20,029 bases of DNA from a virus. Position numbers and translations under genes: made by a program. This document shows, piece after piece, positions 1,125-15,610 of this stretch. The stretch spans positions 1-20,029 of the IMG/VR virus record IMGVR_UViG_3300020056_001078. One strand, given 5' to 3'. Position 1 is the first letter of the stretch. Each line of letters opens with the position of its first letter. The notes below the pieces were generated by a model that made no database searches, was not told where the DNA came from, and saw only the letters and a list, made by a program, of their open reading frames with translations.

Positions 1125-2793
1125 TAGCCATACTCCATGCATATCCTGATCTAAGTTCATTAACATCATATTGACAATATGCAATATGATTAAAAAAAGA
1201 TTCCATTACATCTCTATCAGGCATTTTTGGAGACTCTATGTTTTCTAAACTTGTTTCAGCTACAGCTGATGCCGCATTTTGACCTAAAACAATAGCTGGT
1301 TTTCCTTCCATTAATGCTTCTACAGCGGCAATACTGTTGTAAGTTACTAAGCAATGCACATCGTCATGTAACGCCATTTGTATTGTTTTTGTGCTAACTC
1401 TTTCAGTTCTGTTAGGTTTTAATCTTATTTCAATCGGCCGATCAGAATATTTTTTGATTTGTCTTACTGTTTGCTTTACCCAATCTTCAGGTTCTGGTTG
1501 TCCGAATAGACGCATAACTTTTTCACTAGGAGGACAAATTAAAATCTTAGATCCTGTAGTAAATTTTTTATATCTATACCCATGTCTTTTTGCTCTATCG
1601 TTAGGACGATCTATTATTGGACCTATGTATTGTAAATTATTTTTTGTTACTCTATGTAACCATTTATTTTTAAAATTACCAAAGTATCCTGTATCAATAA
1701 CATAAAAATCTCTACCCTTATCCCAGCAACGTTGAATGGCTTTTCTACTTCCTCCGCCTACACCTCTAATTACTAAAGAAGTGTCAGTATCCATATGATC
1801 CGCATATGATGCAATTTGTCCGTTACTTCCTTGACAAAAATTTTCAAGAATAGGATCATACACCCATCCTTTACGTTCAAAATTTACTTCGCTTGTATCA
1901 ATTGCAACAACTTTACCCATAGTATTGTGTACTCTCTCCGTAATTTTGTCCCATGTATTTCCTTTGTAATACTTAGCATCCTTATCAACCATGTAATTTA
2001 GAACTGATTTCAAAATATCTTTTTTATCTTCAGTAACTTCCCATGTGTTCCATGTTAGCTTGTGTTTGGAATTAAATTCTTTATTTTTTATAAAACTTTT
2101 TTCTGCTAGATACCAATCACCTGAATACTCACATCTTTGATATTTTTTAAACCAAGGGCCGCCTTCGGTATAGTGTAATGCTTTAGGTGTACCATCTTGG
2201 GGCTCTTTATACCAACCTACTAACCAGTTCCATTCGTGAGACACTTTTCCAATTTCATTGTCTTTAAGCCAACTGAATCTGTGCAGATACTTTCCATCGA
2301 TTGCTTCATCATTAACAAATTCTTTTGTAAGTTTTTTATTTGACTTGTGTCCGCAATTCCATAAAACCATAGAACTCCAATTCTTTCGTGGATAGTTATG
2401 CTGTATTTTACCATCCATTTTTTCAGTTCCTTCTTTAGGAGTATAATCATGCTGGGCACACATTACAGCATATTTGTCGTCTATCCTTTCAAATAATTCT
2501 CTTACATCATTTCTAAAAATAAAGTCACAATCACAGAATACAGCCCATCCTTTAAACTCACAAAGTTCAGGAATAAGAAATCTGCTAAACGTAAATTCTG
2601 TAGACGCAAGTTTATCTTCAGGGCGCCAATACAATCCTTTTTTTCTTAATTCGTCTAATTTGATAGGAACAACTTCTATTTGATTAGGATATTTTGCCGC
2701 ATCTAATATACTTTGTTTAGCAACTTGATATGCAATATCTTCTCTTGAATCCCATCCTATGAATACTCTTAATGTGTTATTACTTACGTTCAA
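1087..2793 (-). CDS. Two-domain glycosyltransferase: GT-A/GT8-like N-terminus fused to a GT-B-like C-terminus
   Basis: About 568 residues. The N-terminal 250 or so look like a GT8-type GT-A enzyme: RVFIGWDSREDIAYQVAKQS, then SRFLIPEL, then WAVFCDCDFIF, whose D-C-D is the metal/nucleotide-sugar-binding DxD motif. Roughly residues 290-568 match the GT-B-like domain of its two neighbours: YSDRPIEIRLKPNR, then VTYNSIAAVEALMEGKPAIVLG, then IESPKMPDRD and a YCQYDVNELRSGYAW-like ending. The usual HP of the paralogues is KP here, so this copy may have drifted. The frame is open to a GTG at 2808, but GGAGG at 2800-2804 lies 6 bases before a TTG at 2793, which I chose. Either start overlaps the upstream fusion gene. 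One chain could make two transfers, or the C-terminal half could be structural. Confidence 0.75.
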   Translation of the reverse strand: MNVSNNTLRVFIGWDSREDIAYQVAKQSILDAAKYPNQIEVVPIKLDELRKKGLYWRPEDKLASTEFTFSRFLIPELCEFKGWAVFCDCDFIFRNDVRELFERIDDKYAVMCAQHDYTPKEGTEKMDGKIQHNYPRKNWSSMVLWNCGHKSNKKLTKEFVNDEAIDGKYLHRFSWLKDNEIGKVSHEWNWLVGWYKEPQDGTPKALHYTEGGPWFKKYQRCEYSGDWYLAEKSFIKNKEFNSKHKLTWNTWEVTEDKKDILKSVLNYMVDKDAKYYKGNTWDKITERVHNTMGKVVAIDTSEVNFERKGWVYDPILENFCQGSNGQIASYADHMDTDTSLVIRGVGGGSRKAIQRCWDKGRDFYVIDTGYFGNFKNKWLHRVTKNNLQYIGPIIDRPNDRAKRHGYRYKKFTTGSKILICPPSEKVMRLFGQPEPEDWVKQTVRQIKKYSDRPIEIRLKPNRTERVSTKTIQMALHDDVHCLVTYNSIAAVEALMEGKPAIVLGQNAASAVAETSLENIESPKMPDRDVMESFFNHIAYCQYDVNELRSGYAWSMANEISSELSRRNS

Positions 2794-3580
2794 TGTCTTC
2801 CTCCACACAGCTTTGGCCGTATTGTATCTCTACAATTTTCAATGGCTTGTCTGTTTCATTTGCAAGCATGTGCCACTGATGTTCAGCTATGTGTAACGAC
2901 TGGTGTGTTTTATATTTTCCTAATAAATCCATATCTGTTGCACTATTTAAAGTATAGACTGTTGCTTCACCTTCTGATACAAACCAATGTTCTGCTCTAT
3001 GTTTATGTCTCTGCATACTTAGCCTGTTGCCTGGATCCACAATTAATTCTTTGACTTTGACATTAGGTCCATTCTCATGCAAAACTCTGTAATAACCCCA
3101 TTTGCGTTTTGTTTTAGGTTCTTTCCATTCCTGTAAAATCCAGCTGGAGCTATTCTTTTTATCATCTCCGCCAACACCATATTCAAATGTTGTGTTAGCA
3201 AACAATACACTATCTTGACTACCTTCGTAATAAAAACTTTCTTCAGGAACATTGCCTTTTTTTCTATCGCCACCGTTTGCAAAAATCAATTGTATATTTT
3301 TATCAAAATTAACACTTTCCCAAAAAACTTTTATTGCATCAATAGCTGTTCCATCACTGTCATCAAATGCAATGACATCATCCACAACAGAAAGATTTTT
3401 TACAATTTTTGATCTTACATTCCAAGGCATAAAAGGTTGTCCTTTTTTCTTTGACAACCATTCATCGGAGTTTAAGGCTACAATAAGTTTGTCACCTAAT
3501 TCTTTTGCAGCTTCAAATAGGCTTAAATGTCCATCATGTATAGGATCAAAGCCGCCAGTAACCAAGACAATACGTTTCAT
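2780..3580 (-). CDS. Nucleotidyltransferase fused to a mannose-6-phosphate isomerase type II cupin
   Basis: 266 residues in two parts. Residues 1-150 are an HxGH-class nucleotidyltransferase of the TagD/RfaE-C kind: TGGFDPIHDGHL (H15, H18), then LNSDEW, then NGGDRKK at 102-108, ending in SSSWILQEW. Residues 160-266 are a cupin like the isomerase half of ManC-type bifunctional enzymes: VKELIVDPGNRLSMQRHKHRAEHWFV with likely metal-ligand histidines at 192, 194 and 198, a later H237, and the family-typical end EIQYGQSC-EEDIERK. In ManC the cupin follows a GT-A-fold guanylyltransferase; here the partner belongs to a different superfamily. A likely role is activating a sugar or polyol phosphate to an NDP derivative for the following glycosyltransferases. 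It starts at ATG directly behind a perfect TATAAATA box with no Shine-Dalgarno. Confidence 0.85.
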   Translation of the reverse strand: MKRIVLVTGGFDPIHDGHLSLFEAAKELGDKLIVALNSDEWLSKKKGQPFMPWNVRSKIVKNLSVVDDVIAFDDSDGTAIDAIKVFWESVNFDKNIQLIFANGGDRKKGNVPEESFYYEGSQDSVLFANTTFEYGVGGDDKKNSSSWILQEWKEPKTKRKWGYYRVLHENGPNVKVKELIVDPGNRLSMQRHKHRAEHWFVSEGEATVYTLNSATDMDLLGKYKTHQSLHIAEHQWHMLANETDKPLKIVEIQYGQSCVEEDIERK

Positions 3581-3585
3581 GCTAA

Positions 3586-3593
3586 TATTTATA
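3586..3593 (-). promoter_or_regulatory. T4-type late promoter box TATAAATA
   Basis: The minus strand reads TATAAATA here, a perfect match to the T4 late consensus recognised in T4 by gp55 with the gp45 clamp. Five bases (TTAGC) separate it from the ATG of the nucleotidyltransferase-cupin gene. It sits in the 36-base gap after the 165-residue methyltransferase, the only real gap within the glycan cassette. It would give the last three cassette genes separate late expression. Confidence 0.7.
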
Positions 3594-3616
3594 TGAGTAT
3601 TTAATTAATTTAAAAA

Positions 3617-4114
3617 TTATGGTTTGTTACAGCTTATTTCTAAATGTCTGTTTTTAGGATTTCTTTTACTAACTAAATTTACAAATCCATGTTGGCTTAA
3701 CAGTTCAAACAACATGTTTTTGTTATATCCACTTTTATGGGTATCCCATGTATCTTCAAAGTCACCATGTTGCCAACCCCATAACCCTGCTCTACAATCT
3801 TGTTTGCCTTTGGCATTCATATCGTTCCAAGAGTTTAATTGGCGTAAATGAAAATCCAAATTAGGAAGCATCATACCCATAATACCACCTGGTTTTAAGA
3901 TATTAAACCATTGATCTAAAACAACTTTTCCTTGAGCAAAAGTAAGATGTTCAAAGAAATGTCTTGACCATATTTCGTCTACTGTGTTAGGTTCAACGTG
4001 TTCAGTAATTTTCCAAGCAGGACATGCATAATCAACTCCTGGTAAATTTCTTATATCGCATGTCTTGAAGCCTTCTTTGGTAGGATTTTCACCACATCCA
4101 AATTCTAAATTCAT
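3617..4114 (-). CDS. Class I SAM-dependent methyltransferase (165 aa)
   Basis: A short Rossmann methyltransferase. Motif I is LEFGCGENP at residues 3-11, almost at the N-terminus. A VDEIWSRHFFEHLTF segment follows, matching the motif around the post-motif-II acidic/EH position of Methyltransf_11-like enzymes, then LKPGGIMGMMLPN, the usual strand-turn after helix E. It lacks the N-terminal helices many such enzymes have, so substrate binding must rely on the C-terminal part. ATG overlaps the upstream stop as ATGA, with GGAG 9 bases before it. The substrate is unknown; context suggests methylation of a sugar or glycan. It is the last gene before the late box. Confidence 0.8.
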   Translation of the reverse strand: MNLEFGCGENPTKEGFKTCDIRNLPGVDYACPAWKITEHVEPNTVDEIWSRHFFEHLTFAQGKVVLDQWFNILKPGGIMGMMLPNLDFHLRQLNSWNDMNAKGKQDCRAGLWGWQHGDFEDTWDTHKSGYNKNMLFELLSQHGFVNLVSKRNPKNRHLEISCNKP

Positions 4115-4902
4115 TTTTTACCACTCCAATTCTTAAAATTATATTTTGTATCATTGTAAACTTGTTTAAAAAAATCATCGTCTAAATATACATTATCTGC
4201 TTTTTTGTTAAACAAATCAAAATGTGTATCTTTTTTACAAGCAATAAAAATTCTTCTATCAGTTTTATATGGTCCCCAAGTAGTTCTAAAAATGTGTTTG
4301 AAGCCTGCATCTTTCAGCCAAGAAGCATAACAACCTACTGTGGCTCCTGTCCAGTTACTTATTGCTCTACAGTATTCATCACCTCTATAAAATCTTGATA
4401 CTGCAAATGTTTCCGGTGTATGTAAATCCACGTGTGTTTCAAAACAAAAAATATCATCACATACAGATGATACTTTATCTATAGCTAATAAAGGATGGCG
4501 TAAATGATAAAGCAATCCGTGAGCATATACAATATCAAACTCTCCTGTAATATTGTAAATTGATTGCTTTTTATAAACAACCTTACTGTTTAAATTTTTA
4601 TGATGAAAATCAAATGCTTTTTTTCCTGTACGGGTGTCGTTAATCAAGTCTATCCATTCGTTATCTTTATGAGCTCCCCAATCATATAATTCAGCTCTTT
4701 CAACATCACATGCTTCTACATAATGAGCACCTTGCATTTCAGAATAAAATGCCCACCATCCTTCGTCTGTAGCAATATCTAACACACGTTTACCTTCTAA
4801 ATTAAATTCATTCAAACCCAATTTATTATACCACTGTAAGTGATGTGTCTTGCCTTTTACACTGTTCCCGTCGGGATATGTTAATGACATTCTATACTTC
4901 AT
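4111..4902 (-). CDS. SAM-dependent methyltransferase, CmoB/DUF1698-like (263 aa)
   Basis: Motif I is GKRVLDIATDEGWW around residues 38-50, followed by VEACDVERAE for the ribose-binding acidic strand and by YAHGLLYHLRHPLLAID. That last segment resembles the LYHLRHPL helix of tRNA U34 CmoB-like (DUF1698) enzymes and their sugar-methyltransferase relatives. Inside a glycan cassette a sugar O-methyltransferase is at least as likely as a tRNA enzyme. The frame is open to 4941, but ATG 4902 is preferred: AAGG lies 6 bases upstream and the overlap with the upstream gene falls to 11 bases. The C-terminal 60 residues are lysine- and aromatic-rich and have no motif I recognise. Confidence 0.8.
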   Translation of the reverse strand: MKYRMSLTYPDGNSVKGKTHHLQWYNKLGLNEFNLEGKRVLDIATDEGWWAFYSEMQGAHYVEACDVERAELYDWGAHKDNEWIDLINDTRTGKKAFDFHHKNLNSKVVYKKQSIYNITGEFDIVYAHGLLYHLRHPLLAIDKVSSVCDDIFCFETHVDLHTPETFAVSRFYRGDEYCRAISNWTGATVGCYASWLKDAGFKHIFRTTWGPYKTDRRIFIACKKDTHFDLFNKKADNVYLDDDFFKQVYNDTKYNFKNWSGKK

Positions 4903-5806
4903 GAATAACCTTTTTAAGATGTTGCCAAGGAACTCCGTCAAAACATTCTTTTTCTGTCCACTGACAATAACCTAAATTATTTAACCATTGTTGCCTATCA
5001 AACATTTTAGGCTGTTCAATAAGTTTCAATGTTTTGTTTGAACATTCCCAAGCCATGCTACTCGGACACATACTGAAAGTTGGAATGCCTTCACATACAC
5101 TTTCAGTTAAAGCATTACTGTTGAAACCTACTACTGCCCAAGCATTTTTAAAATCTGCATAAAGTTGATCACCGCCAGATAGCATTCCTTCTCTTGATTT
5201 GTTCTCACTAATAATGACATCTTTTAAATTACATTTTTTTATAATCTCAAGTTGCCAAAGTCTTCTACTAGGGTGAGGACGTACAACAATTTTTCTATCT
5301 GTATATTTTCTTATTTCGTTAACAGTAAATGTAATAAAATTTTCGTATGATCCGTGTATAGAAATTAAATTTTTTAAACTTGTGTCTCCTGGCCTTTGAA
5401 GCACTAATAACACATAGTCGCCTTTTGTCTTCCAGTCTTTTATATCAATACGCTGTGTCTTTTGTATTTGTTTCCATCTATCAGGTGGACAATTTTTATT
5501 ATTATAGATACCTTCATCTCTAAAATAACTCCTCCAACTCCATCTATGATACGCATTGACATGAGGGGGGTCAGGCATGTTACGTCTAAAAACAGCTGAC
5601 TCTAAACAGATAAAAGGTTTGTTTGAATCAAGCACATATTGATAGATATGTCCTAGTTTGCGTTCTTTTTTGCCGCCTTTTATGTTAGTCTGTACTAGAA
5701 CATCTGCTGTATCTAATTCTGCTTTATTTTGAATAGAGATTACGGGCCAATCTTTTGGAATGGGATGATAAGTCCACATTAGTTCTTTGACGGCAACTAT
5801 CTTCAT
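4892..5806 (-). CDS. GT-B-like glycosyltransferase, paralogue 2
   Basis: 304 residues, homologous by eye over most of its length to the 204-1124 protein: W-x-x-I-x-x-x-x-x-I-D linker, then KGDYVLLVLQRPGDTSLKN, YTDRKIVVRPHPSRR, NAWAVVGFNSNALTESVCEGIPTFSM, and IEQPKMFDRQQWLNNLGYCQW. The HP-S/R and N-S-x-x-x-x-x-x-x-x-G-x-P-x-F blocks are typical of nucleotide-binding C-domains in capsule-type GT-B transferases. No signal peptide or membrane helix is visible, so it probably works in the cytoplasm on a soluble or membrane-edge acceptor. ATG overlaps the preceding methyltransferase stop as ATGA. The substrate is unknown. Confidence 0.75.
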   Translation of the reverse strand: MKIVAVKELMWTYHPIPKDWPVISIQNKAELDTADVLVQTNIKGGKKERKLGHIYQYVLDSNKPFICLESAVFRRNMPDPPHVNAYHRWSWRSYFRDEGIYNNKNCPPDRWKQIQKTQRIDIKDWKTKGDYVLLVLQRPGDTSLKNLISIHGSYENFITFTVNEIRKYTDRKIVVRPHPSRRLWQLEIIKKCNLKDVIISENKSREGMLSGGDQLYADFKNAWAVVGFNSNALTESVCEGIPTFSMCPSSMAWECSNKTLKLIEQPKMFDRQQWLNNLGYCQWTEKECFDGVPWQHLKKVIHEV

Positions 5807-6369
5807 TTTCTAAAAAGCAATCCACGTTTTTTAACATATGCTCCTTTAACACCTTTTTTACCAGGCTTACGCATAGTTGACCTACTTCTAAGTTGGTTAG
5901 TAAGAGCACCGTCGTATTTAAATCCATACTGAATAAATTTATTAATCCAGTAAGATTCTGGTTGACAGTTTACATGATGATGTCCTGGCCAGCCTGGTGG
6001 TGCATAAGTCATTATAACATATTTGCATTTTTGAAAACTAGGCATATAATTAGGAATATATTCTTCGTATACATGTTCTACAAACTCTACGCTCCATGCT
6101 AAATCGAATTGTTTTGGCTTCATTTTTTGAATTGGACCTTTTGTATAATCGTGTATAATAAATTTAGAATCATCGTATCTATCTAAAGTATAATCTCCAT
6201 CTATACCAATTGCATTGATGTTTTTTTGATTAGCTAGTTCTACCATACCACCAGGACCGCATCCAATATCAAGCATACTTTTTACTTGCAAAATATCTTT
6301 TACAAAGTCTAACGCTCCTTCATCTAGATGTGTATAACCTGCATGTCCGCCTAAGTGTTCTTCTAACAT
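5803..6369 (-). CDS. Class I SAM-dependent methyltransferase (188 aa)
   Basis: Motif I is unmistakable: MLDIGCGPGGMVELA at residues 32-46, then NAIGIDGDYTLD for motif II (acidic residue at the end of strand 2) and FDLAWSVEFVEHVYEEY, the usual E-x-x-E-H block. A PPGWPGHHHVNCQPESYW segment with three consecutive histidines matches the post-core loop seen in FkbM/Methyltransf_23-like phage enzymes. The C-terminus is strongly basic (RKPGKKGVKGAYVKKR), which could bind nucleic acid or an acidic glycan. It starts at ATG 6369, sharing one base with the upstream stop, with GAGAG just before it. Confidence 0.82.
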   Translation of the reverse strand: MLEEHLGGHAGYTHLDEGALDFVKDILQVKSMLDIGCGPGGMVELANQKNINAIGIDGDYTLDRYDDSKFIIHDYTKGPIQKMKPKQFDLAWSVEFVEHVYEEYIPNYMPSFQKCKYVIMTYAPPGWPGHHHVNCQPESYWINKFIQYGFKYDGALTNQLRSRSTMRKPGKKGVKGAYVKKRGLLFRK

Positions 6370-7163
6370 TACTCTCTCATTCCATTAAATACTGTTTTTT
6401 TAAATTTTAAATTATCGTCATGTATAGACTGAATTAATTTTAAATCAATGTCTAAATTTTTCATTAAACTTGCAATAGCAATAGTATCTTTCGGTAAACA
6501 CATACCTCCGTATCCGCGTAGGCTAGGATTTACATCTAAGTACATATCAGTTGCTTTGCCTGTTTTTATGTATGCATTTTTAATTGTAGTATAATCGCAG
6601 TCTAATTTATCACAAATTTCATACATATTATTTGCAAATGTTACTCTTAGAGCCGCATATACGTTATTAAAATACTTTAAAACTTCTGCTTCATTTGGTG
6701 TTAGATGTTCTGTATGTTCAGGTAGTTTTCCATGTGATCTAACAACTTTACGATAAACCCAAATGTCATGTGTGCCAACTGCTAGTAGTTTATGATTATT
6801 AATAAAGTCATCTTCTGCACAACGTTCACGTAAAAATTCTGGTACAAAACATATTGTAAGATTATTATATTTTTCAATCATACTTTGAGTAAATCCAGGA
6901 ACTACTGTGCTTCTTATGGCAATAATACCTTTGTACTTGCAATCATCAAGTTCTTGTATAACACTCTCTATTATACTAGTGTCACAACTGCCGTCATTTG
7001 CTTGAGGAGTAGGAACACATACATAATTTAATTCTGTATCACAAACATCACTTATTTTTGTTTCTAGTTTTATATCATGTAAAACAACTTCATGTCCTAA
7101 AAATTCAAAACCGTTTTTATTTGCACTTCCTACAGCGCCTACTCCTATTATTCCTATTTTCAT
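6369..7163 (-). CDS. Short UDP-glucose/GDP-mannose 6-dehydrogenase family protein lacking the C-terminal domain
   Basis: 264 residues. The NAD-binding N-domain shows GIIGVGAVGSA (residues 5-14), YVCVPTP, RSTVVPG and CFVPEFLRE. The central domain has the conserved N-x-x-x-A-x-R-x-x-F-A-N helix and GYGGMCLPKD at 217-226, whose C222 is the family catalytic cysteine. Typical members have about 390-440 residues; the third (UDP-binding) domain is absent, and the chain ends about 40 residues after the cysteine at a normal stop, followed at once by the next gene. It is therefore either a genuinely short phage form or an enzyme with altered substrate binding. It follows the epimerase gene by ATGA overlap, as expected for a nucleotide-sugar pathway pair. 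Oxidation to a uronic acid is the family activity; substrate not proven. Confidence 0.85.
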   Translation of the reverse strand: MKIGIIGVGAVGSANKNGFEFLGHEVVLHDIKLETKISDVCDTELNYVCVPTPQANDGSCDTSIIESVIQELDDCKYKGIIAIRSTVVPGFTQSMIEKYNNLTICFVPEFLRERCAEDDFINNHKLLAVGTHDIWVYRKVVRSHGKLPEHTEHLTPNEAEVLKYFNNVYAALRVTFANNMYEICDKLDCDYTTIKNAYIKTGKATDMYLDVNPSLRGYGGMCLPKDTIAIASLMKNLDIDLKLIQSIHDDNLKFKKTVFNGMRE

Positions 7164-8014
7164 AATAAACTCTCTACAGTCTTCTTCAATCCTACTTCTA
7201 GCAAAGTATAATCTTTAAATCCTGTTATTTGTTTTACTCTTGTTGTATCAGGACATCTACGTTTTGCACTACCAATAGGACCATCCATTACCTCTAATTT
7301 TTCTGGATTTATTCCCATGATACCCATTATAAGTTTTGCTACTGTGCTAATTTGTATTTCTTCTTGTCTACCTATATTTACCGTGCAATTTTCACTATTA
7401 TCAATAACAGCTTGTGTCATTTGAATTGCATCATCTATATAGCAAAAACTTCTTGTATCGTTGCCTTTAATATAGTATTCTCCTTTTGCACAACGTTCAA
7501 CAAATTCACTAATAAAATGATCCTTTTGTCCTGGACCATATATATTAAAATATCTAATTATGTTATATTTCAATCCGCAGTTAGCAACTAAATTTTCTCC
7601 TAGTGCTTTAGGTACACTATAACTCCATCTAGGATTATCTATGTTATTAAACATAATAGGTACTGATTCGTCTGTAGGTACTGGATGTAGTCCTTTATCT
7701 ATTGCACCATTAAAGATTTCACAAGTGCTTGTAAAAACAAATTTTGTATCTGTATTTTGATACTTTTTGATTAAATTAAAAGTTGGTAATGTGTTATTAA
7801 ATGAAACTTCAGTAGGTGTTTCGTAAAATAATCTTGTTCCGTTAGTCGCCGCCATATGAACTAGTACATCACAATCTGGCATGTCATCTACTACTTGTTG
7901 ATCACACAAATCATGATTGCTTAATAAATCATATCCTATTGCATTGTCTAATGATTTATAATAATGACTACCTATAAAACCTTTGTGTCCAGTTACAATA
8001 TAATTTTTATCCAA
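7160..8014 (-). CDS. NAD-dependent epimerase/dehydratase (extended SDR)
   Basis: 284 residues with the extended-SDR signature: N-terminal TGHKGFIGS (glycine-rich NAD motif, residues 8-16), VLVHMAA, FTSTCEIF with the catalytic Ser/Thr, and Y132-x-x-x-K136 in SYSVPKALGE, followed by RYFNIYGPGQ and R-S-F-C-Y-I-D-D. This pattern fits UDP-glucose 4-epimerase, UDP-glucuronate decarboxylase and related nucleotide-sugar enzymes; I cannot choose among them. The start is TTG at 8014: an in-frame TAA lies two codons upstream and the glycine motif begins at residue 8, so no ATG/GTG is possible. It overlaps the upstream glycosyltransferase by 8 bases, suggesting translational coupling. Confidence 0.88.
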   Translation of the reverse strand: MDKNYIVTGHKGFIGSHYYKSLDNAIGYDLLSNHDLCDQQVVDDMPDCDVLVHMAATNGTRLFYETPTEVSFNNTLPTFNLIKKYQNTDTKFVFTSTCEIFNGAIDKGLHPVPTDESVPIMFNNIDNPRWSYSVPKALGENLVANCGLKYNIIRYFNIYGPGQKDHFISEFVERCAKGEYYIKGNDTRSFCYIDDAIQMTQAVIDNSENCTVNIGRQEEIQISTVAKLIMGIMGINPEKLEVMDGPIGSAKRRCPDTTRVKQITGFKDYTLLEVGLKKTVESLL

Positions 8015-8750
8015 TTTTTAGTCTCGTTTTTCTTGTTAATGCTTTGCCATAATGCTTATCACGTTTTTCTTTTTTAGCACCTTTATAATGAGCTATATAA
8101 CCGTTTAGTGCTTGATCAAAATGACTTTTTGTAATATTTGGAGGACTTATATTTTGGTTTTTAATTTTTCCTTCTTGTTCCATTTCTAAACGCACAGCAT
8201 CAAACACATGACAATCTAATTGTGCAGATAGTTTATAAAGATTGTTAGTATCATAGTATTCTTTAAATCTATCAAAAAACTCTTGTGCATATTTGTGCCG
8301 CATATCGAAAACTAAAAATCCTGTTTCCGTGTAGGTTCCTGGCCTACCGAGATAAGCAACAAACTTTCCTTCTGGTAGAAACTTTCTTAAATATTGAGAT
8401 GTAATTTGTGTAATGATTTCTGTGTCAGTATCTAACCAACATAATATATCTACATCTTTTGTTTTTGCTGCATGATAAAGACAATAGCTTTTATGACTAA
8501 ACCGTACAGCATCAAACATGAAGTTTGAAGGTTTTTTGTTTTTATTTTTTTCTTTAAATGCTGTAAGGTCAGGAATAGATTCTTCTAATTTTTGATTTGA
8601 CATATGGGCAGGCAAATCAAGTTTTGTATTATCAGTATAGAAAAATACAGAAATGTCTTTATCTATAAATCTTTTTGCACTTTCTACAAACCAATGTCCG
8701 TATTCTTGATAACCTTTGTCACTGAATGTTGTAACAATACCTATTTTCAT
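8007..8750 (-). CDS. GT-A-like glycosyltransferase (247 aa)
   Basis: Begins MKIGIVTTFSDKGYQEYG and has VDILCWLDTDTEI, with D107-T-D109 as the DxD metal/nucleotide-sugar motif, preceded by the RFSHKSYCLYHA helix common in phage-encoded GT-A proteins. YLGRPGTYTETGFLVFD follows, resembling the acceptor-side loop where a GxxN/ETG stretch closes over the donor. The C-terminus is basic (GAKKEKRDKHYGKALTRKTRLK). The start has AAAGAGGT 3-8 bases before ATG. It is the first glycan gene after uvsY, 11 bases on, so it may be co-transcribed with the recombination genes. Donor and acceptor unknown. Confidence 0.75.
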   Translation of the reverse strand: MKIGIVTTFSDKGYQEYGHWFVESAKRFIDKDISVFFYTDNTKLDLPAHMSNQKLEESIPDLTAFKEKNKNKKPSNFMFDAVRFSHKSYCLYHAAKTKDVDILCWLDTDTEIITQITSQYLRKFLPEGKFVAYLGRPGTYTETGFLVFDMRHKYAQEFFDRFKEYYDTNNLYKLSAQLDCHVFDAVRLEMEQEGKIKNQNISPPNITKSHFDQALNGYIAHYKGAKKEKRDKHYGKALTRKTRLKIG

Positions 8751-8761
8751 AACACCTCTTT

Positions 8762-9217
8762 CTATAAAGTAGCATCTTCCATCCCTGCTACTCTCAGCTT
8801 TACTATATTAGTTATCTGCCATTGCTTCTGATCAAGTGCCTTTAAGACTCCTAACCATTTGTTACGAAGAAGTGCGAATTCATTAATAATTTTTTCGTAA
8901 TCAACTACATCTGCCTCACCGTCAACATATTTTTCAACGTCTCGACTAGATAAAGCTCTTTGATAATTTTCTAGATATTTTTTGAAATATGAGCTACGCA
9001 ATCTACGTAGCTCTATATTCATATAGTGTAATATTGCTTCGATTTCTTGAAGTTGATTAAAACGGTGTTCAACAATGCCCGGCATAGCCGCTGATGCTTT
9101 TTCTACATTACCTGCAAGTTTGACTTCTTTTCTTGCGTCAACTAGTTCAGACTCATAATGTTTAATTGCTTCTGGTATCTTTCCAACATCACGTGATACT
9201 TCACTATACCAACCCAT
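8762..9217 (-). CDS. uvsY: UvsY recombination mediator
   Basis: 151 residues, helical and charged, with the T4-like cyanophage UvsY pattern: EIEAILHYMNIELRRLRSSYFKKYLENY, SRDVEKYVDGE, VNEFALLRNKWLG-like block (here INEFALLRNKWLGVLKALDQKQWQITNI) and KLRVAGMEDATL at the end. In T4 UvsY (137 residues) is a ring-forming protein that loads UvsX onto gp32-coated single-stranded DNA. The neighbours uvsX and gp32 lie directly upstream in the same direction, so all three partners are in one cassette. Ribosome binding site is weak (GGGATGA about 8 bases away, inside the previous gene's end), suggesting coupling to the small ORF before it. Confidence 0.85.
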   Translation of the reverse strand: MGWYSEVSRDVGKIPEAIKHYESELVDARKEVKLAGNVEKASAAMPGIVEHRFNQLQEIEAILHYMNIELRRLRSSYFKKYLENYQRALSSRDVEKYVDGEADVVDYEKIINEFALLRNKWLGVLKALDQKQWQITNIVKLRVAGMEDATL

Positions 9218-9220
9218 TAA

Positions 9221-9451
9221 TTATTCATCCCATTCATATTCATCATCAAACTGATCTTCGTCAATATCCAAATAATAATAGATAGCATTGTCTAAGTAAT
9301 TACAACTTCCTAATGCTCCTTTGAATGCTTCGTCATCTGCTCCAAAGTCTGCACATACTTCAACAAATCTTTCAGCACAAATTTCAATCTGCTTTTTATC
9401 TATATTGTCCTTGAATACTGACCAAATATCAGCAATCTGTTGCTCTTCCAT
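9221..9451 (-). CDS. Small acidic protein between uvsX and uvsY
   Basis: 76 residues, with a strongly acidic C-terminus (YYYLDIDEDQFDDEYEWDE). The ribosome binding site GAGGAGGA overlaps the last codons and stop of uvsX, and the gap to uvsY is 3 bases, so all three are clearly translated together. From memory, small acidic ORFs at this position occur in marine T4-like phages, but I know no assigned function. A DNA-mimic or an accessory to UvsX/UvsY would fit the charge and the position; this is inference only. Two cysteines (C30, C37 approximately) and a C50-like one show no metal-site spacing. Confidence 0.75.
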   Translation of the reverse strand: MEEQQIADIWSVFKDNIDKKQIEICAERFVEVCADFGADDEAFKGALGSCNYLDNAIYYYLDIDEDQFDDEYEWDE

Positions 9452-9454
9452 ATA

Positions 9455-10531
9455 CTATTCCTCCTCGATGCTGTCGGCTTCGAGGGTATTTACCAATTTG
9501 TCCTTAATTGCATCTTCAATTAAGTTTCCAGTATAATCTTTCATAACAGTATCAAGTAAAGAACCGTCCCAGTTTTTTCTGTACTCTTTATGTTCAGTAC
9601 CATTTGATGTTACGTATTTTAGTCTGTTTCCATCTTTTACAAGAAGACCTTTCTTTTCAAAAAGATCAACTAATCCACTGTACGGATTCATACCTGTTTC
9701 ATATGGAATCTTGACCTGCACACCTTCAAACGGTTTAGCGTAACGTGTTTTCATTACTTTACAACCAGCACGTATACCACGCACATCAGTGACTTTGTTG
9801 CCATCTTCATCTTCTTTTAGTTTTAACTTTTTCATTGCAACTACAATAGATGAAGCATAGATAAAGCCTTGACCGCCTGAAATTTTATCATCTGGATCAA
9901 ACATATCTTGCGATGCATATGTGTGATTAGTACATACTAGTCCTACATTATGAGAACCAATCATGTTAACTGTATTACGAACAAGTGATGTTAGTGCTTT
10001 AGGTTTACGACCCATATCGCCTTTCATATCACCTTTGTTAAACTGATCAACATCTGTTGGCGTAAGTAACATACCTAAACTATCAATAACAAACAATACT
10101 TTCGGACGATCAGCTTCATCCATTGCTTTATAATCTGTCATAAATGTTGAAATAGTTTTTGCAACATCGTCAATCATTGACATGTTTAATTTAAGTAGTT
10201 TTTCTTCTGAAGTATCTACATCAAGTGCGTGTAACCACGATTCGTCAAGTGCATTTTCAGAGTCAATAAGAACTACAAATATACCTTGGTCCTGTGCATG
10301 TTTTACAATATTGCCTGCACAAATATATGATTTACCAGCGCCTGATTCTCCAGCAAACACTGTAACCTTACCCATAGGTACACCTTTATGAAAGTCACCT
10401 GATATAAGATAATTGAGTGCATAGTTACCTGTTGAAATCCAGTCAGTAGGATCATTGAATCCCGCACTCATACCTGTAATGGATTTAGTTAATTGTGTCC
10501 GAAACTTGCTCGGATCAAATGCTTTTGCCAT
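9455..10531 (-). CDS. uvsX: UvsX RecA-like recombinase
   Basis: 358 residues. Walker A is GESGAGKS at residues 61-68; Walker B is KVLFVIDSLGML around 144-154. DSENALDESWLHALDV and VCTNHTYASQDMFDP-KISGGQGFIYASSIVV match the RecA/UvsX core, including the L2 and GG-containing loop. UvsX forms filaments on single-stranded DNA and drives strand exchange and recombination-dependent replication, with UvsY and gp32 as partners. The start ATG has AAGGAGA 5 bases upstream. A 93-base gap separates it from gp32 and holds a 9-bp long-range stem. The acidic C-terminus SIEEE ends in codons that also form the next gene's ribosome binding site. Confidence 0.96.
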   Translation of the reverse strand: MAKAFDPSKFRTQLTKSITGMSAGFNDPTDWISTGNYALNYLISGDFHKGVPMGKVTVFAGESGAGKSYICAGNIVKHAQDQGIFVVLIDSENALDESWLHALDVDTSEEKLLKLNMSMIDDVAKTISTFMTDYKAMDEADRPKVLFVIDSLGMLLTPTDVDQFNKGDMKGDMGRKPKALTSLVRNTVNMIGSHNVGLVCTNHTYASQDMFDPDDKISGGQGFIYASSIVVAMKKLKLKEDEDGNKVTDVRGIRAGCKVMKTRYAKPFEGVQVKIPYETGMNPYSGLVDLFEKKGLLVKDGNRLKYVTSNGTEHKEYRKNWDGSLLDTVMKDYTGNLIEDAIKDKLVNTLEADSIEEE

Positions 10532-10552
10532 ACTTGTCTCCTTGTTAAAGTT

Positions 10553-10615
10553 GCCCAGTGCATTTAGAATTTTGACATGTAAACAATGAATCTCTGTTCT
10601 GATTTAGCACTGGGC
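10553..10615 (-). promoter_or_regulatory. Long-range stem in the leader of uvsX
   Basis: GCCCAGTGC (10553-10561) and GCACTGGGC (10607-10615) are perfect 9-bp complements with a 45-base AT-rich loop, lying between the gp32 stop and the uvsX ribosome binding site. Nothing else in the gap is GC-rich, so the pairing stands out. There is no T-run after it on the minus strand, so it is a poor rho-independent terminator. It may protect or divide a gp32-uvsX transcript, or control uvsX translation. Confidence 0.55.
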
Positions 10616-10624
10616 TTGATTAGT

Positions 10625-11623
10625 TTATTGACTTTGTCTTGCTCTAATCATTGCAAGAATGTCTTCTGCTTTACCTTCAGTTTCTGTTGATTGTGCAGCA
10701 GGTGCTTCTGCTTGTGGAGCAGGAGCAGTCTCAGCTGGTGCAGTTTCTGCTACCGGAGCTGGTGCTGGAGTTTCATCAGTTCTTGAAGTTGCAGTGCCGT
10801 TTGATGATGATGTATTAGGATCACCAGTTCTAGCACTCATGCCTGCTGGACGGAAGTACTGTGAAAATCTCTCTTCATCATATGCTTCTCCGTCAACACT
10901 TGCTTCAAACATTTCCTGCATAACCTTGACTTCAACGTCGGAAGGCTTCTTAGGAAGAAAGTCGCTCAGATTGAACAACCCGTTTGTATTTACAGCATTC
11001 ATTTCTGAATCACCAAGCGGACGCTCTCTACGTGCCCAATTGGAAGTACTGTAATCTGCGTAACCACCTTTACTTGTTTTGTTAAGACGGAAATCAACAC
11101 CAGCAGTATAATCTGTTGGCAGTTCTTCCATATCAGGATCCATTAGTGCCTGTTTAATAATTTGGAAAATTTGTGGACCAATTATAAAACGTCTAATCGG
11201 ATTTTCTGGAGTAGTATCCTCTGATAAAGGATTGTCTACTACAAAACCTTGGAAAAGATAAGAACGCTTTTTCCAATATTTGCGACCCATGTCTTCTAAA
11301 CTAGGATCTTTAAACCAACCCCTAACTTCATTAAGGATGTTACAAGTATCTCCATACATTTCCATACATGGAATTTGCACTTGTACAGGACGACTATCAG
11401 TCTGTCCTTTGATTCCGGAAAACGGAAGTTTAATCATCAAACGTTCTTTCCAAAAGAATGTGTTTGAATCATCTCCATCAGGAAGGAATCGGAGTGTTGC
11501 ACTCTCGCCTTCTTTAATATTCCAGAATGGGTAAATTGCGTTGTCGCCGCCGCCTGTGTTTGAACCACCTTGTCGTGATTCTTGCTCTTTGAGCTTTGCT
11601 CTAATTTCAGCTAATGATGCCAT
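10625..11623 (-). CDS. gp32: gp32-like single-stranded DNA-binding protein
   Basis: 332 residues. The N-terminus MASLAEIRAKLKEQESR is the basic cooperative-binding arm of marine gp32 homologues. The OB core follows (AIYPFWNIKEGESATLRFLPDG, then SYLFQGFVVDNPL and RRFIIGPQIFQII), then an acidic stretch and a long A/P/T/E-rich linker before a conserved-looking end AEDILAMIRARQSQ. gp32 coats single-stranded DNA during replication and recruits UvsX/UvsY and polymerase. Only two cysteines exist (in IPCMEMYGDTC), so the T4 His-Cys3 zinc site is not intact. AAAGGAGG lies 6 bases before ATG, the strongest ribosome binding site in the window, consistent with a protein needed in high amount. Confidence 0.93.
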   Translation of the reverse strand: MASLAEIRAKLKEQESRQGGSNTGGGDNAIYPFWNIKEGESATLRFLPDGDDSNTFFWKERLMIKLPFSGIKGQTDSRPVQVQIPCMEMYGDTCNILNEVRGWFKDPSLEDMGRKYWKKRSYLFQGFVVDNPLSEDTTPENPIRRFIIGPQIFQIIKQALMDPDMEELPTDYTAGVDFRLNKTSKGGYADYSTSNWARRERPLGDSEMNAVNTNGLFNLSDFLPKKPSDVEVKVMQEMFEASVDGEAYDEERFSQYFRPAGMSARTGDPNTSSSNGTATSRTDETPAPAPVAETAPAETAPAPQAEAPAAQSTETEGKAEDILAMIRARQSQ

Positions 11624-11681
11624 AATATGCCTCCTTTAATTGCCTTTAGCTTTGTGCCTGTTTATGTAGCACATGTTATAC

Positions 11682-11710
11682 ATACTACACAATTATATAG
11701 CAGAAGTCAA
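11682..11710 (-). promoter_or_regulatory. Sigma70-like promoter for gp32
   Basis: On the minus strand TTGACT (11705-11710) is followed after 17 bases by TAGTAT (11682-11687), with an alternative TATAAT at 11692-11697 inside the spacer. It lies about 60 bases before the gp32 start in a 116-base gap, the largest gap in the window. It would be used by host polymerase early, unlike the TATAAATA boxes. The exact -10 is uncertain. Confidence 0.5.
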
Positions 11711-11722
11711 CCTTTTTCTGCT
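11699..11722 (-). repeat. Inverted repeat overlapping the gp32 promoter
   Basis: AGCAGAA (11699-11705) and TTCTGCT (11716-11722) form a 7-bp dyad with a 10-base centre that covers the -35 element. It begins 18 bases after the stop of the 745-residue gene. It could be an operator, or a weak terminator for that gene (what follows on the minus strand is ATATAATT, not a clean T-run). Confidence 0.45.
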
Positions 11723-11739
11723 AAATTCTTGAAATTATT

Positions 11740-13977
11740 TTATATTCCTGCTAGTTGCCTGATATTTTCTAGTTCTACTGATTCCTGACTCTTATCAAAA
11801 GATGATACATCAGCAGCAGCCTTGCGAGCTACATCTTTTCGTATCTTTTGAAGTACCTGTCCTAAATTGTCTCTTGTAATATTATATTTTACGTAAGCCA
11901 TATTCAACCATTGATCTTCTTCTGATGATAAAGAACTAGAACTCATAAGTCCTTCAATTGCATCAGCATCATTTAGATATCCTTCAGGACCATTGTAGTT
12001 TGGGTCATATGCTGTGCTCTGCATACCATACTTACCAGTTACTTCACTTCCACTGTTGTCATAATCTGGTTGAAACGATTTTTTTGGTAAACTAGGTGCT
12101 TCTGGATCGGCTTGTGGTTTGGCTGGGTCATCAGGCATTGATTTTTTTGTTGGTTTTATATCTGGGCCTGGACCACCAAATGCATCTAGTTTGTCGTCAG
12201 CTGACTTATCAGCAGCCTTACCAGCATCTCTTTTGGCTGCCGCTTTATTGCTCAATTCGTCTTTTACTCTACCCATTAAGTCCCTATATTTTTTTGGAAT
12301 CATAGGATTATCTTTGTACGTATTGTATAAAGTTAACAGCATTTCTTCATCGCCTGCTTTCAATTTCTCATCTAACTTTGACAAGAAACCTTCTAGTGTA
12401 AATTCTTCATCGTCCATTAATTCTGGATCTTTATATCCGTTATACTCTTCAAACTTTGCGTTGATAGCTTCTATAAACTGCTTTGCTGGATTAATAAAGC
12501 TCTCGCCAAAATCTTTTTCTACTGCTGTCAGCACTGCTGTTTCGCCTTTTGGAAACTGTCCTGTATGTCTGTCATACATTGAAAGCACGTAGTCTGTAAC
12601 AGTTTCAATTGTAATCTCTTTACCATCAGGACCCATTACTTTGTCGCCTTTCTTCTTGCCATCCATTTTTGCTTTGCGGACTGCGTGTGCATATGCATTA
12701 CCTTCATCTGTATCACTGTCATCTTCCATTATGTCTGGAACACCGTTGCCATTTGCGTCTCTCCACCATGATCCAGATTCGTCATGTGAGTCATGTGAGC
12801 AACCACAATCTGGTTTACAGTTGTGCATCTGACATCCACAATCTTTACAATGATACTTTTGGTAGCCTTTCATATAGCCTTCGTCTAGTGCAGAATCTAC
12901 TGTGTCATCTGCCCATTCTTCAAAAGCATTGAAATCATCTTTATGGTCACTTGCAGTAGATTCTGTAGTTTCTTCTACACTGTCTACAATATCTTCTGGA
13001 CCTAGTTCTTGGGCTTTCGTTTCTTCATTAACAAGATTGTATATGTATGGAAATACATCTTTTAATTCTTCATTGAACTGTCTAATTGTAAGTTGATCAA
13101 CCCAGTTCTCAGCTACGTCTTCTGGAACTTCTTTGATTTCTTTTACTTCGAAGTTTTCAATCATAGCTTGATATGATTTTTGTCTTTGTAGTCCTTCAAT
13201 AGTTTTTTTGACCGTTAGCACTCGCTCATTTACTATATCCATGTATTGTGAAAGACCTTCTGCCATTACACCTGACCGACCCATGTAACTTTTGAATTTC
13301 TTTAACTTGTATAATTCTTCTGATAACCCTGTAATATGTTTTCCAAAATCATCATAAACTTTTCCACCTTCGGATACATGCATCGCCATAGCTCTTGCAC
13401 CATTAAGATGTTTGAAAGGATATTTAAATCTTTCACCTTCTGAACTTTCAATATAAATGTTTTCAATGTGTTGTGTACGTCCACTTGCAAGTTCTTGGTT
13501 TACAGGCTGATTATGCCTAACGCTGACTCTAGCTGATCCAACGTCTTGGTAGCTAGTTCTGCTTGTTCCATACATTTTTGATTCGGTCATTTGTTCTTCT
13601 CCGGATTGATTTTGTGCTAAAAATTTATAATCATTTTTGTTAAGATTGCTTTTTGTAATATCTCTAGTGTCAAAATTTAAAAGCCTTTTCTTAGCAAAAT
13701 ACCTTAATTCTTTTAAAAAGTCATACCATGATTGTTTTACTAACTTGTCTTGGTTTTCTACAAAATTATTGCTATACATCACGCTTACAGCATTTTCATC
13801 TAAGCTAACACTAACTCTTCCTAATGATTTTTCTTTTTGTTTAAAGTCAAAATCAAAGAATCTAGCTTCATTTGGCTTGTTAGTAACAATGCCTTCTGCA
13901 TTTCCTATTGTTACAGTAGGAAAGCGTCCACGTATTTTATTAAATAATTCTTCACTTATTAAATCAAGGTTTTTCAT
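11740..13977 (-). CDS. Probable virion protein, 745 aa, with cysteine cluster and Ca-binding-like motif
   Basis: I know this protein only as an uncharacterised marine T4-like phage protein adjacent to the terminase. The N-terminal region (to about residue 150) is compact and well structured: KIRGRFPTVTIG, LGRVSVSLDE, WYDFLKELRYFAKKRLLNFDTRD. The centre (about 170-310) is helical. Residues 376-400 hold six cysteines and several histidines (C-x2-C-x-C-x4-C-x3-C-x-C), a likely metal site. Residues 407-420 (DANGNGVPDIMEDD) resemble a thrombospondin-type-3/EF-like calcium loop. A DE-rich and then a K/A/P-rich tail follows. ATG 13977 is chosen over the TTG at 13992: it lies 5 bases after a GATAAATA box and no ribosome binding site exists for either. 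Likely structural, given its late box; the role is not known. Confidence 0.75.
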   Translation of the reverse strand: MKNLDLISEELFNKIRGRFPTVTIGNAEGIVTNKPNEARFFDFDFKQKEKSLGRVSVSLDENAVSVMYSNNFVENQDKLVKQSWYDFLKELRYFAKKRLLNFDTRDITKSNLNKNDYKFLAQNQSGEEQMTESKMYGTSRTSYQDVGSARVSVRHNQPVNQELASGRTQHIENIYIESSEGERFKYPFKHLNGARAMAMHVSEGGKVYDDFGKHITGLSEELYKLKKFKSYMGRSGVMAEGLSQYMDIVNERVLTVKKTIEGLQRQKSYQAMIENFEVKEIKEVPEDVAENWVDQLTIRQFNEELKDVFPYIYNLVNEETKAQELGPEDIVDSVEETTESTASDHKDDFNAFEEWADDTVDSALDEGYMKGYQKYHCKDCGCQMHNCKPDCGCSHDSHDESGSWWRDANGNGVPDIMEDDSDTDEGNAYAHAVRKAKMDGKKKGDKVMGPDGKEITIETVTDYVLSMYDRHTGQFPKGETAVLTAVEKDFGESFINPAKQFIEAINAKFEEYNGYKDPELMDDEEFTLEGFLSKLDEKLKAGDEEMLLTLYNTYKDNPMIPKKYRDLMGRVKDELSNKAAAKRDAGKAADKSADDKLDAFGGPGPDIKPTKKSMPDDPAKPQADPEAPSLPKKSFQPDYDNSGSEVTGKYGMQSTAYDPNYNGPEGYLNDADAIEGLMSSSSLSSEEDQWLNMAYVKYNITRDNLGQVLQKIRKDVARKAAADVSSFDKSQESVELENIRQLAGI

Positions 13978-13982
13978 AATAA

Positions 13983-13990
13983 TATTTATC
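13983..13990 (-). promoter_or_regulatory. Late-promoter-like box GATAAATA
   Basis: The minus strand reads GATAAATA, seven of eight bases matching the T4 late consensus, followed by TTATT and then ATG 13977. It overlaps the end of the terminase gene (stop at 13989-13991). Spacing to ATG is the same 5 bases as at 3586 and 15575. Confidence 0.6.
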
Positions 13991-15569
13991 AATAATTGGT
14001 ACTAATGAAGATAGGCATAGGCGGTTCATAATCCTCCGTATCTTCTATACTTTTAAATGTGTTGTATATTCTAGGATCCCAATCTTGCAAAACTCCCATA
14101 ATTCTTATACTTAAAAGCATTGCAGATATTAGATCATCTGTTTCTCCTGGTTTTGCTTTGAAACTTGATCCTGTTGCTACAAAGCCTTTTAGTTCTGATA
14201 TCAATGGGCCAGAAGCTACAATTAATTTGTCATTTTCTATCATTGTTTTTAACTTGGCACAAGCTGTAATTTTTGTGCTATGTGTTGTGTTGAAGCCTTT
14301 GCGAAACTTTCTTACATGTCCTTTACGTATTGGTTCACTTACAAACATGCCAGGTATATTTTCTTCACCAAAATCTCTAATAACAATGAGTGCTGCTTCT
14401 CCTATTGCATTGTTTTCCACACTCCAATATATGCCTGTTGATCGGCCACTTTCTTTTTCAATGTAATCACATATATCTTTGAGGACTCTTATCTGCCCAG
14501 GAATAGGTGTGGTGTTATGTCTCCACTCAGCTACTTGTTTATAACTAGGAAGTTCAATAACCTGTATAGCGGCGTAGTCTCCTCCTGTACCCATACTAGG
14601 ATCTAATCCTATACAGTAAGAAGCATCTTTTTTGATTTTTTCATACCAGCGTGTTTGACCCATATTCATAATAACTGGTTTTGACTCCATCGATGCTAAC
14701 TTTATACTGTTTAACAATGTTTCGTCAAAAACTAAAAATTCACAACCATATTCACGTCGAAATCTTTCTTCACCGATACGTCCTATTTCATCTTCTTTCC
14801 ATTTTTCATCTCTGTCAGGATGCTCATCCCAAGCACATGTAAAACTGTGAAAACCATTTATACCTACATCTTGTTCATTACCGTGTTCGTCAAATTTTTG
14901 TTCAGCTTGTTTCCAAATAGTAGCAAATGTATCTTCGTCTGAGTTAGGTGTGCTTGTTAGGATTGCACGACCACCTGTTGCTAGTGTAGGCGATATAGAA
15001 GTCCAAAATTCATCTGCAATAGTAGGTTGGACAAATGCAAACTCATCACAGTACAGCAATGAAATACTCATACCTCTACCTGTGTTACCAGTTGTAGTTG
15101 CACTCACTATACGAGATCCGTTTTCAAATTCAATTGAACCTTTGTTGTAGTTAACAACACCAGCTCTTATGTGATCTGGACAAAGTTCATATCCATATCT
15201 AATACGTTGCATGATTTCCTGTGCGCCTGTGTATTTGTGAGCGGCAATAAGTATAGTTTGATCTGGGTTAAACATAGCATACCATAAAAGATAAATGGCT
15301 GCACAGGTTGTTTTACCTGTTTGTCTTGGCAACATGTTTATGTTAAATCTGTGATTGTGATAACTTTCTAACAGACTTACTTGATAGGAGTATGGATCAA
15401 ATAACAATTTTCCTTCAACAGGATGTTGAATATATGCAAAGTGTTTTGCAAAATACAAATAGCCTAAATCAGGATCCATACATTCAGCAAGATCCTGTAT
15501 TTGTGCTTCTGTAAAAGATTCACGTTGATTTGCTTTTTTGGTTAATACACCATCTAAACTTTTACTCAT
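13989..15569 (-). CDS. gp17: Large terminase subunit (T4 gp17 type)
   Basis: 526 residues. ATPase domain: Walker A LPRQTGKTT at 80-88, Walker B LLYCDEF at 171-177, coupling motif LTSTPNS at 204-210. Nuclease (RNase H-like) domain: CIGLDPSMGTGGDY with D323, SVENNAIGEAA with E385, and GETDDLISAML with D478/D479, so all catalytic acids are present. It cuts concatemeric DNA and drives it into the prohead. T4 gp17 has 610 residues; this one is shorter mainly at the N-terminus. ATG 15569 is preceded at 5 bases by GTTAAATA and by no Shine-Dalgarno. A terminator lies 15 bases farther upstream, so it must have its own promoter. A small terminase is not recognisable in this window. Confidence 0.97.
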   Translation of the reverse strand: MSKSLDGVLTKKANQRESFTEAQIQDLAECMDPDLGYLYFAKHFAYIQHPVEGKLLFDPYSYQVSLLESYHNHRFNINMLPRQTGKTTCAAIYLLWYAMFNPDQTILIAAHKYTGAQEIMQRIRYGYELCPDHIRAGVVNYNKGSIEFENGSRIVSATTTGNTGRGMSISLLYCDEFAFVQPTIADEFWTSISPTLATGGRAILTSTPNSDEDTFATIWKQAEQKFDEHGNEQDVGINGFHSFTCAWDEHPDRDEKWKEDEIGRIGEERFRREYGCEFLVFDETLLNSIKLASMESKPVIMNMGQTRWYEKIKKDASYCIGLDPSMGTGGDYAAIQVIELPSYKQVAEWRHNTTPIPGQIRVLKDICDYIEKESGRSTGIYWSVENNAIGEAALIVIRDFGEENIPGMFVSEPIRKGHVRKFRKGFNTTHSTKITACAKLKTMIENDKLIVASGPLISELKGFVATGSSFKAKPGETDDLISAMLLSIRIMGVLQDWDPRIYNTFKSIEDTEDYEPPMPIFISTNY

Positions 15570-15574
15570 ATGTA

Positions 15575-15582
15575 TATTTAAC
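15575..15582 (-). promoter_or_regulatory. Late-promoter-like box GTTAAATA
   Basis: The minus strand reads GTTAAATA, six of eight bases matching TATAAATA, followed by TACAT and the terminase ATG. It lies directly after the terminator at 15584-15610, so terminase transcription must begin about here. Confidence 0.5.
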
Positions 15583-15583
15583 C

Positions 15584-15610
15584 AAAAAAATAGGGCCTGA
15601 TGGCCCTATT
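15584..15610 (-). terminator. Rho-independent terminator upstream of terminase
   Basis: On the minus strand AATAGGGCC, loop ATCA, GGCCCTATT form a perfect 9-bp stem (5 G-C pairs), followed by a run of seven T (15584-15590). It starts 30 bases after the stop of the 150-residue gene and would end the transcript of the two genes upstream. It is the clearest terminator in the window. Confidence 0.9.

Follow-up and report, generated by a model that had tools for sequence, protein, structure and literature searches.

Late promoters and leaderless messages in related systems

The closest described counterparts of the promoters considered here are the late promoters of T4 (gp55/gp33/gp45), which likewise consist of a TATAAATA-type box with no conserved -35 element. 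The T4 box spans -13 to -6 (PMC1524935), position -13 is also named for the T4 late promoter elsewhere (PMC2988020), and the first box position is variable in T4-like phages too (PMC1524935). The two systems differ in spacing: no T4 gene has a box 4-5 bases before its start, and T4 late boxes lie at least 12 bases upstream, mostly with a Shine-Dalgarno (SD) sequence. Leaderless genes driven by a -10 element in Deinococcus-Thermus are similar in that a promoter element, some 6-7 bp from the ORF, takes the place of the ribosome-binding site (PMC12340547), but those are cellular genes with a TANNNT motif, whereas here the element is a phage late-type box that serves only part of the late genes. 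The lambda cI message also starts at its AUG (PMC9031893, PMC5230787); it comes from one repressor gene of a temperate phage, whereas here leaderless messages are predicted for many genes of lytic-type T4 relatives. Finally, phiKZ and AR9 late promoters share a short element near the start site (PMC5312081), but are read by a phage-encoded multisubunit polymerase, have other motifs and, in AR9, give 5' UTRs of 26-491 nt.

T4-type late promoters and leaderless mRNAs are thus each already known, separately. No description of leaderless T4-type late mRNAs was found in a literature search mostly outside subscription journals. If the reading proposed below is true, these phages would be, as far as known, the first T4-related group with a leaderless class of late message, and promoter-to-start spacing could set the translation mode of structural genes. 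The phages concerned are abundant ocean viruses, with at least 600 gp17-matching stretches in IMG/VR. Late-promoter prediction has been reported as unsuccessful in pelagimyophages (PMC7029224), which a box placed next to the start codon may explain; the published pelagiphage transcriptome covers HTVC022P and HTVC027P and not HTVC008M.

Three late-type boxes in the window

The window, that is the whole 20,029-nt stretch of viral DNA analysed, contains the following features.

3593-3586, minus strand: late-type box TATAAATA, followed by the spacer TTAGC and ATG at 3580
13990-13983, minus strand: late-type box GATAAATA, overlapping the gp17 stop codon, followed by the spacer TTATT and ATG at 13977
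15582-15575, minus strand: late-type box GTTAAATA, followed by the spacer TACAT and ATG at 15569
2780..3580, minus strand: nucleotidyltransferase/cupin gene, 266 aa, predicted leaderless (Pfam PF01467 and PF01050), no SD
11740..13977, minus strand: head-and-packaging virion protein gene, 745 aa, predicted leaderless (phrog_13484, E 6e-17)
13989..15569, minus strand: gp17 large terminase, 526 aa, predicted leaderless (Pfam Terminase_6N and 6C)
10625..11623, minus strand: gp32, an SD-led contrast gene without a late box, SD AAAGGAGG
9455..10531, minus strand: uvsX, an SD-led contrast gene without a late box, SD AAGGAG
15584..15610, minus strand: GC-rich intrinsic terminator AATAGGGCC-ATCA-GGCCCTATT with T7, -14.7 kcal/mol

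An earlier note, made from the letters of this DNA, had placed each box exactly 5 bases before an ATG without SD and had contrasted these genes with four that are clearly SD-led. All three box and ATG positions were verified on the minus strand, with exact 5-base gaps. The three starts indeed have no SD, while one is present at gp32, at uvsX, at the 76-residue ORF (GAGGAGGA) and at the GT-A gene (AAAGAGG). Absence of SD is wider than the three box genes, as uvsY (start 9217) likewise has none in the window. Each of TATAAATA, GATAAATA and GTTAAATA matches the T4-type late box, whose place is at about -13 to -6, or a close variant of it, and the boxes in the window include those of late genes, the terminase and the virion protein. 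The product of the 266-aa gene combines a cytidylyltransferase-like domain with a mannose-6-phosphate-isomerase-type cupin domain (Pfam).

Mis-set start codons are unlikely, since the starts are conserved and a search upstream of gp17 and the cupin gene for an in-frame ATG, GTG or TTG found none. The 745-aa gene has a TTG 15 nt upstream, whose frame is lost in relatives with spacing 4. TAAATA is scarce in the window, with 18 sites where shuffles lead one to expect 36, yet 3 of the 18 copies stand at exactly spacing 5 before a gene; by a hand estimate for the window, about 0.008 such copies would be expected by chance (P ~1e-7). At the cupin gene, the promoters of many orthologues (window 3586-3600) carry an extra conserved element, approximately CTRCGTATA, just upstream of TAAATA; it is absent at gp17 and possibly marks a separate promoter subclass.

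Box-to-start spacing in relatives

Relatives comprised 158 IMG/VR loci retrieved with gp17 and uvsX as queries, together with named phages and eight longer records (G001-G008), five of which were examined over all or almost all of their length. Genes were counted in five clade records and pelagiphage HTVC008M, which together have 1,298 called genes. The earlier note had named a sharp peak of box-to-ATG spacing at 5 bases without SD, in relatives, as support for its reading, and the scan was strongly positive, with a sharp SD-free peak at 4-5. Of the 1,298 genes, 62 have a TAAATA whose last base lies 4-5 bases ahead of the start, against ~3.5 expected; spacings 3 and 6 have no genes at all, and the other near spacings average 1.7 each. 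An SD-like match was present in 6 of these 62 genes, in some of the six upstream of the box, vs 729 of the 1,298 genes overall. When TAAGTA was also allowed, the near-box genes numbered 70 and belonged to 46 protein families, of which 16 were represented in at least two genomes. The Poisson probability for the excess at near spacing (~1e-54 over the 1,298 genes) overstates independence because the genomes share families, and the family count is the safer measure. In G001 and HTVC008M, few hexamers are as strongly position-specific as TAAATA at -11.

The retrieved loci show the same pattern. Ahead of ATG-led ORFs of 60 codons or more, NATAAATA occurred 128 times at spacing 5, 28 times at spacing 4 and 20 times at spacing 7, with 0-5 occurrences at 3, 6 and 8-12 and a second hump at 17-31.

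Conservation and signature of the start site

After removal of near-identical contexts, a box at spacing 4-5 was found in 69 of 84 gp17 orthologues (51 at 5, 18 at 4) and in 68 of 86 orthologues of the 745-aa gene (43 at 5, 25 at 4), with 14 more of the latter at 7; the cupin gene had it at spacing 5 in 49 of 55. By contrast, gp32 orthologues have an SD in 97 of 97 and a near box in none, and uvsX orthologues an SD in 118 of 119 and a box at 4-5 in none. All 225 orthologous starts are ATG, in a start search that tried ATG first. In 186 of the 186 orthologous starts at spacing 4-5, ATG is preceded by T or C: the two pyrimidines exchange for one another and never for a purine, while neighbouring spacer positions vary. 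In the same genomes, T or C precedes only 279 of 723 (39%) SD-led starts. Bacterial transcription usually prefers to start with a pyrimidine at -1 and a purine at +1, and the invariant pyrimidine before ATG fits a transcription start there.

Given the T4 box at -13 to -6, spacing 5 would place +1 on the A of ATG. Spacing 4 needs the start shifted by one base; otherwise spacings 4 and 7-8 imply a leader of 2-3 nt. In the clade genomes, the first base past the box is C in 14 of 21 spacing-4 promoters vs 3 of 41 spacing-5 ones (P 2e-6). The trend is similar in SD-led late promoters: among the 56 with C first, a pyrimidine-purine step falls at bases 4/5 in 35 and at 5/6 in 15; where C is not first, the step is at 4/5 in 23 of 65 and at 5/6 in 33 of 65. 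This suggests that the register rule belongs to the promoter rather than to the start codon.

Terminators and upstream genes

The T run of the window terminator stops one base short of the gp17 box, so transcripts from upstream should stop there, and 43 of the 69 gp17 loci with a near box have a hairpin and T run no more than 14 nt from it. In HTVC008M-type pelagimyophages (KC465899:18914-18945; L315-L333), gp2 (DNA end protector) and gp4 (head closure) are divergent, with starts 26 bp apart, and the gap holds two boxes that point outwards, most contigs having both at spacing 5. Any leader of either gene would need to begin inside the opposite one.

These arrangements bear on the possibility that the late promoters are real but that these genes owe most of their translation to upstream genes, through coupling or read-through, the start-adjacent promoter being a minor top-up. 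The 745-aa gene, the downstream neighbour of gp17, invites this explanation, as its ATG lies about 10 bases past the gp17 stop codon, which its box overlaps; start-stop coupling there, or read-through of the upstream terminator, may occur. However, gp17 itself comes after a terminator, gp2 and gp4 have no upstream gene to couple to, and the box of the 745-aa gene persists where the gp17 stop switches from TGA to TAG. We regard this explanation as quite unlikely.

Two kinds of late gene in one genome

The earlier note had gone on to propose a switch in which late genes are leaderless and early genes SD-led. This is too strong, as most late boxes in relatives feed SD-led leaders: the five clade records have 132 far boxes (17-38 bases from the start, mostly then followed by an SD) vs 51 near ones, the far boxes forming a broad second, SD-bearing group. 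That all late genes are leaderless is rejected on the same grounds. The major tail genes of the clade, encoding tail tube, sheath and neck, are SD-led, often from a far box, and so is the major capsid gene, which in most genomes has no nearby box. Near-box genes of HTVC008M include the DNA end protector, head closure, tape measure, baseplate wedge, baseplate wedge initiator and a tail tube protein. The split falls within the late class, not between early and late. What stands of the proposal is the leaderless late message, a prediction carried by the sharp SD-free peak, the conservation at orthologous starts and the start-site signature.

Alternatively, TAAATA at -11 could be a translation signal, an SD substitute or an unstructured stretch that binds S1, on longer mRNAs started upstream, and not a promoter. 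It does fill the SD position, and the genes bearing it there lack an SD. On the other hand, SD-led genes have the identical box too, 17-38 bases upstream, terminators at gp17 run almost up to it, no gene has it at spacing 3 or 6 although SD spacing is as a rule loose, and the pyrimidine at -1 suits a transcription start; taken together, we consider a translation signal very unlikely. Chance in an AT-rich genome with no special spacing, for which low GC and the commonness of TAAATA and its anagrams as words would speak, is rejected as next to impossible by the rarity of TAAATA in the window, by the large excess over other spacings and over anagram controls (whose highest counts probably come from words overlapping the box itself, e.g. 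AAATAT) and by the retention of spacing and -1 pyrimidine across many divergent contigs.

A palindromic box, ATAAATATTTAT (G001:C1:171075-171106), appears bidirectional, with spacing 5 and no SD on one side and an SD-led gene on the other. In Melnitz (L285), the orthologue of a predicted leaderless HTVC008M tail gene (ORF near 9254) has kept TATAAATAGTAGTATG but has an SD and, 17 bases downstream, a new ATG, which looks like the gain of a leader.

Proposed late expression mode

We consider it likely that the three genes of the window are expressed as leaderless late messages from T4-type late promoters. The three boxes would be read by a gp55-type sigma factor, and transcription would begin at the A of the start codon or one base from it at most, so that gp17, the virion gene of 745 aa and the cytidylyltransferase/cupin gene would each give a leaderless or almost leaderless mRNA and ribosomes would initiate on a 5'-terminal AUG without SD. 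We infer the start at ATG and the leaderless translation from motif, spacing, conservation, absence of SD, pyrimidine at -1 and abutting terminators.

In this marine group and in HTVC008M-type pelagimyophages, one box would thus serve two types of late gene: a leaderless type, whose box stands 4-5 and now and then 7-8 bases before ATG, and a leadered type with the box 17-38 bases away and an SD. The most likely use of the two types is to set output per late gene, the terminase and minor virion or accessory proteins being leaderless and the abundant capsid and tail proteins SD-led. In E. coli, leaderless messages are usually translated less well, and the near class may by the same token have the lower output. 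It is unlikely that a dual late programme runs across the whole genome, in which the position of the promoter would by itself pick leaderless or SD-led translation for each late gene and a phage-encoded bS21 would help to shift ribosomes to leaderless starts late in infection.

Distribution among phages and hosts

Several other findings concern other phages and possible hosts. First, T4, KVP40, Syn9, PA5oct, Phosso, Atu_ph07, phiM12 and Campylobacter phage F370 all have the far class and only 0-1 near-class genes (box at 4-5), in scans that covered 50 kb of phiM12, 220 kb of Atu_ph07 and 200 kb of Phosso; PA5oct has 1 by gene call and 4 by raw ORF count. A general T4-like trait is rejected by the counts of 0-1 in T4, KVP40, Syn9, phiM12, Atu_ph07, Phosso and F370. 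Second, a trait of Alphaproteobacteria phages is unsupported, as phiM12 and Cr30 are without TAARTAN5ATG and three near-class genes occur in Melnitz, a phage of OM43. Third, the clade member G004 and HTVC008M share with T4 a gp55 homologue, which PA5oct encodes as well; it was sought and not found in G001, G002, G003 and G005, which are possibly fragments, and the window itself covers only 20 kb.

Fourth, bS21 is encoded by the three largest clade records (G001:C1:181826-181981, G002:C1:121276-121425 and G003:C1:118584-118739), by HTVC008M (KC465899:91237-91392) and by Melnitz, and is absent from T4, KVP40, Syn9, P-SSM2 and phiM12. PA5oct, Phosso and Atu_ph07 carry bS21 but not the leaderless class, so bS21 would be at most a helper. 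Lastly, relatives of gp17 in GTDB genomes were confined to a contig of a Methylophilaceae MAG (61%) and to a Euryarchaeota MAG, where the contig is short, too weak a basis to name a host. The contig binned in the Methylophilaceae MAG (CAJIZS010000002.1), which carries the 61% gp17 relative, is 89.5 kb long and weakly hints at OM43-type bacteria as hosts of a related phage.
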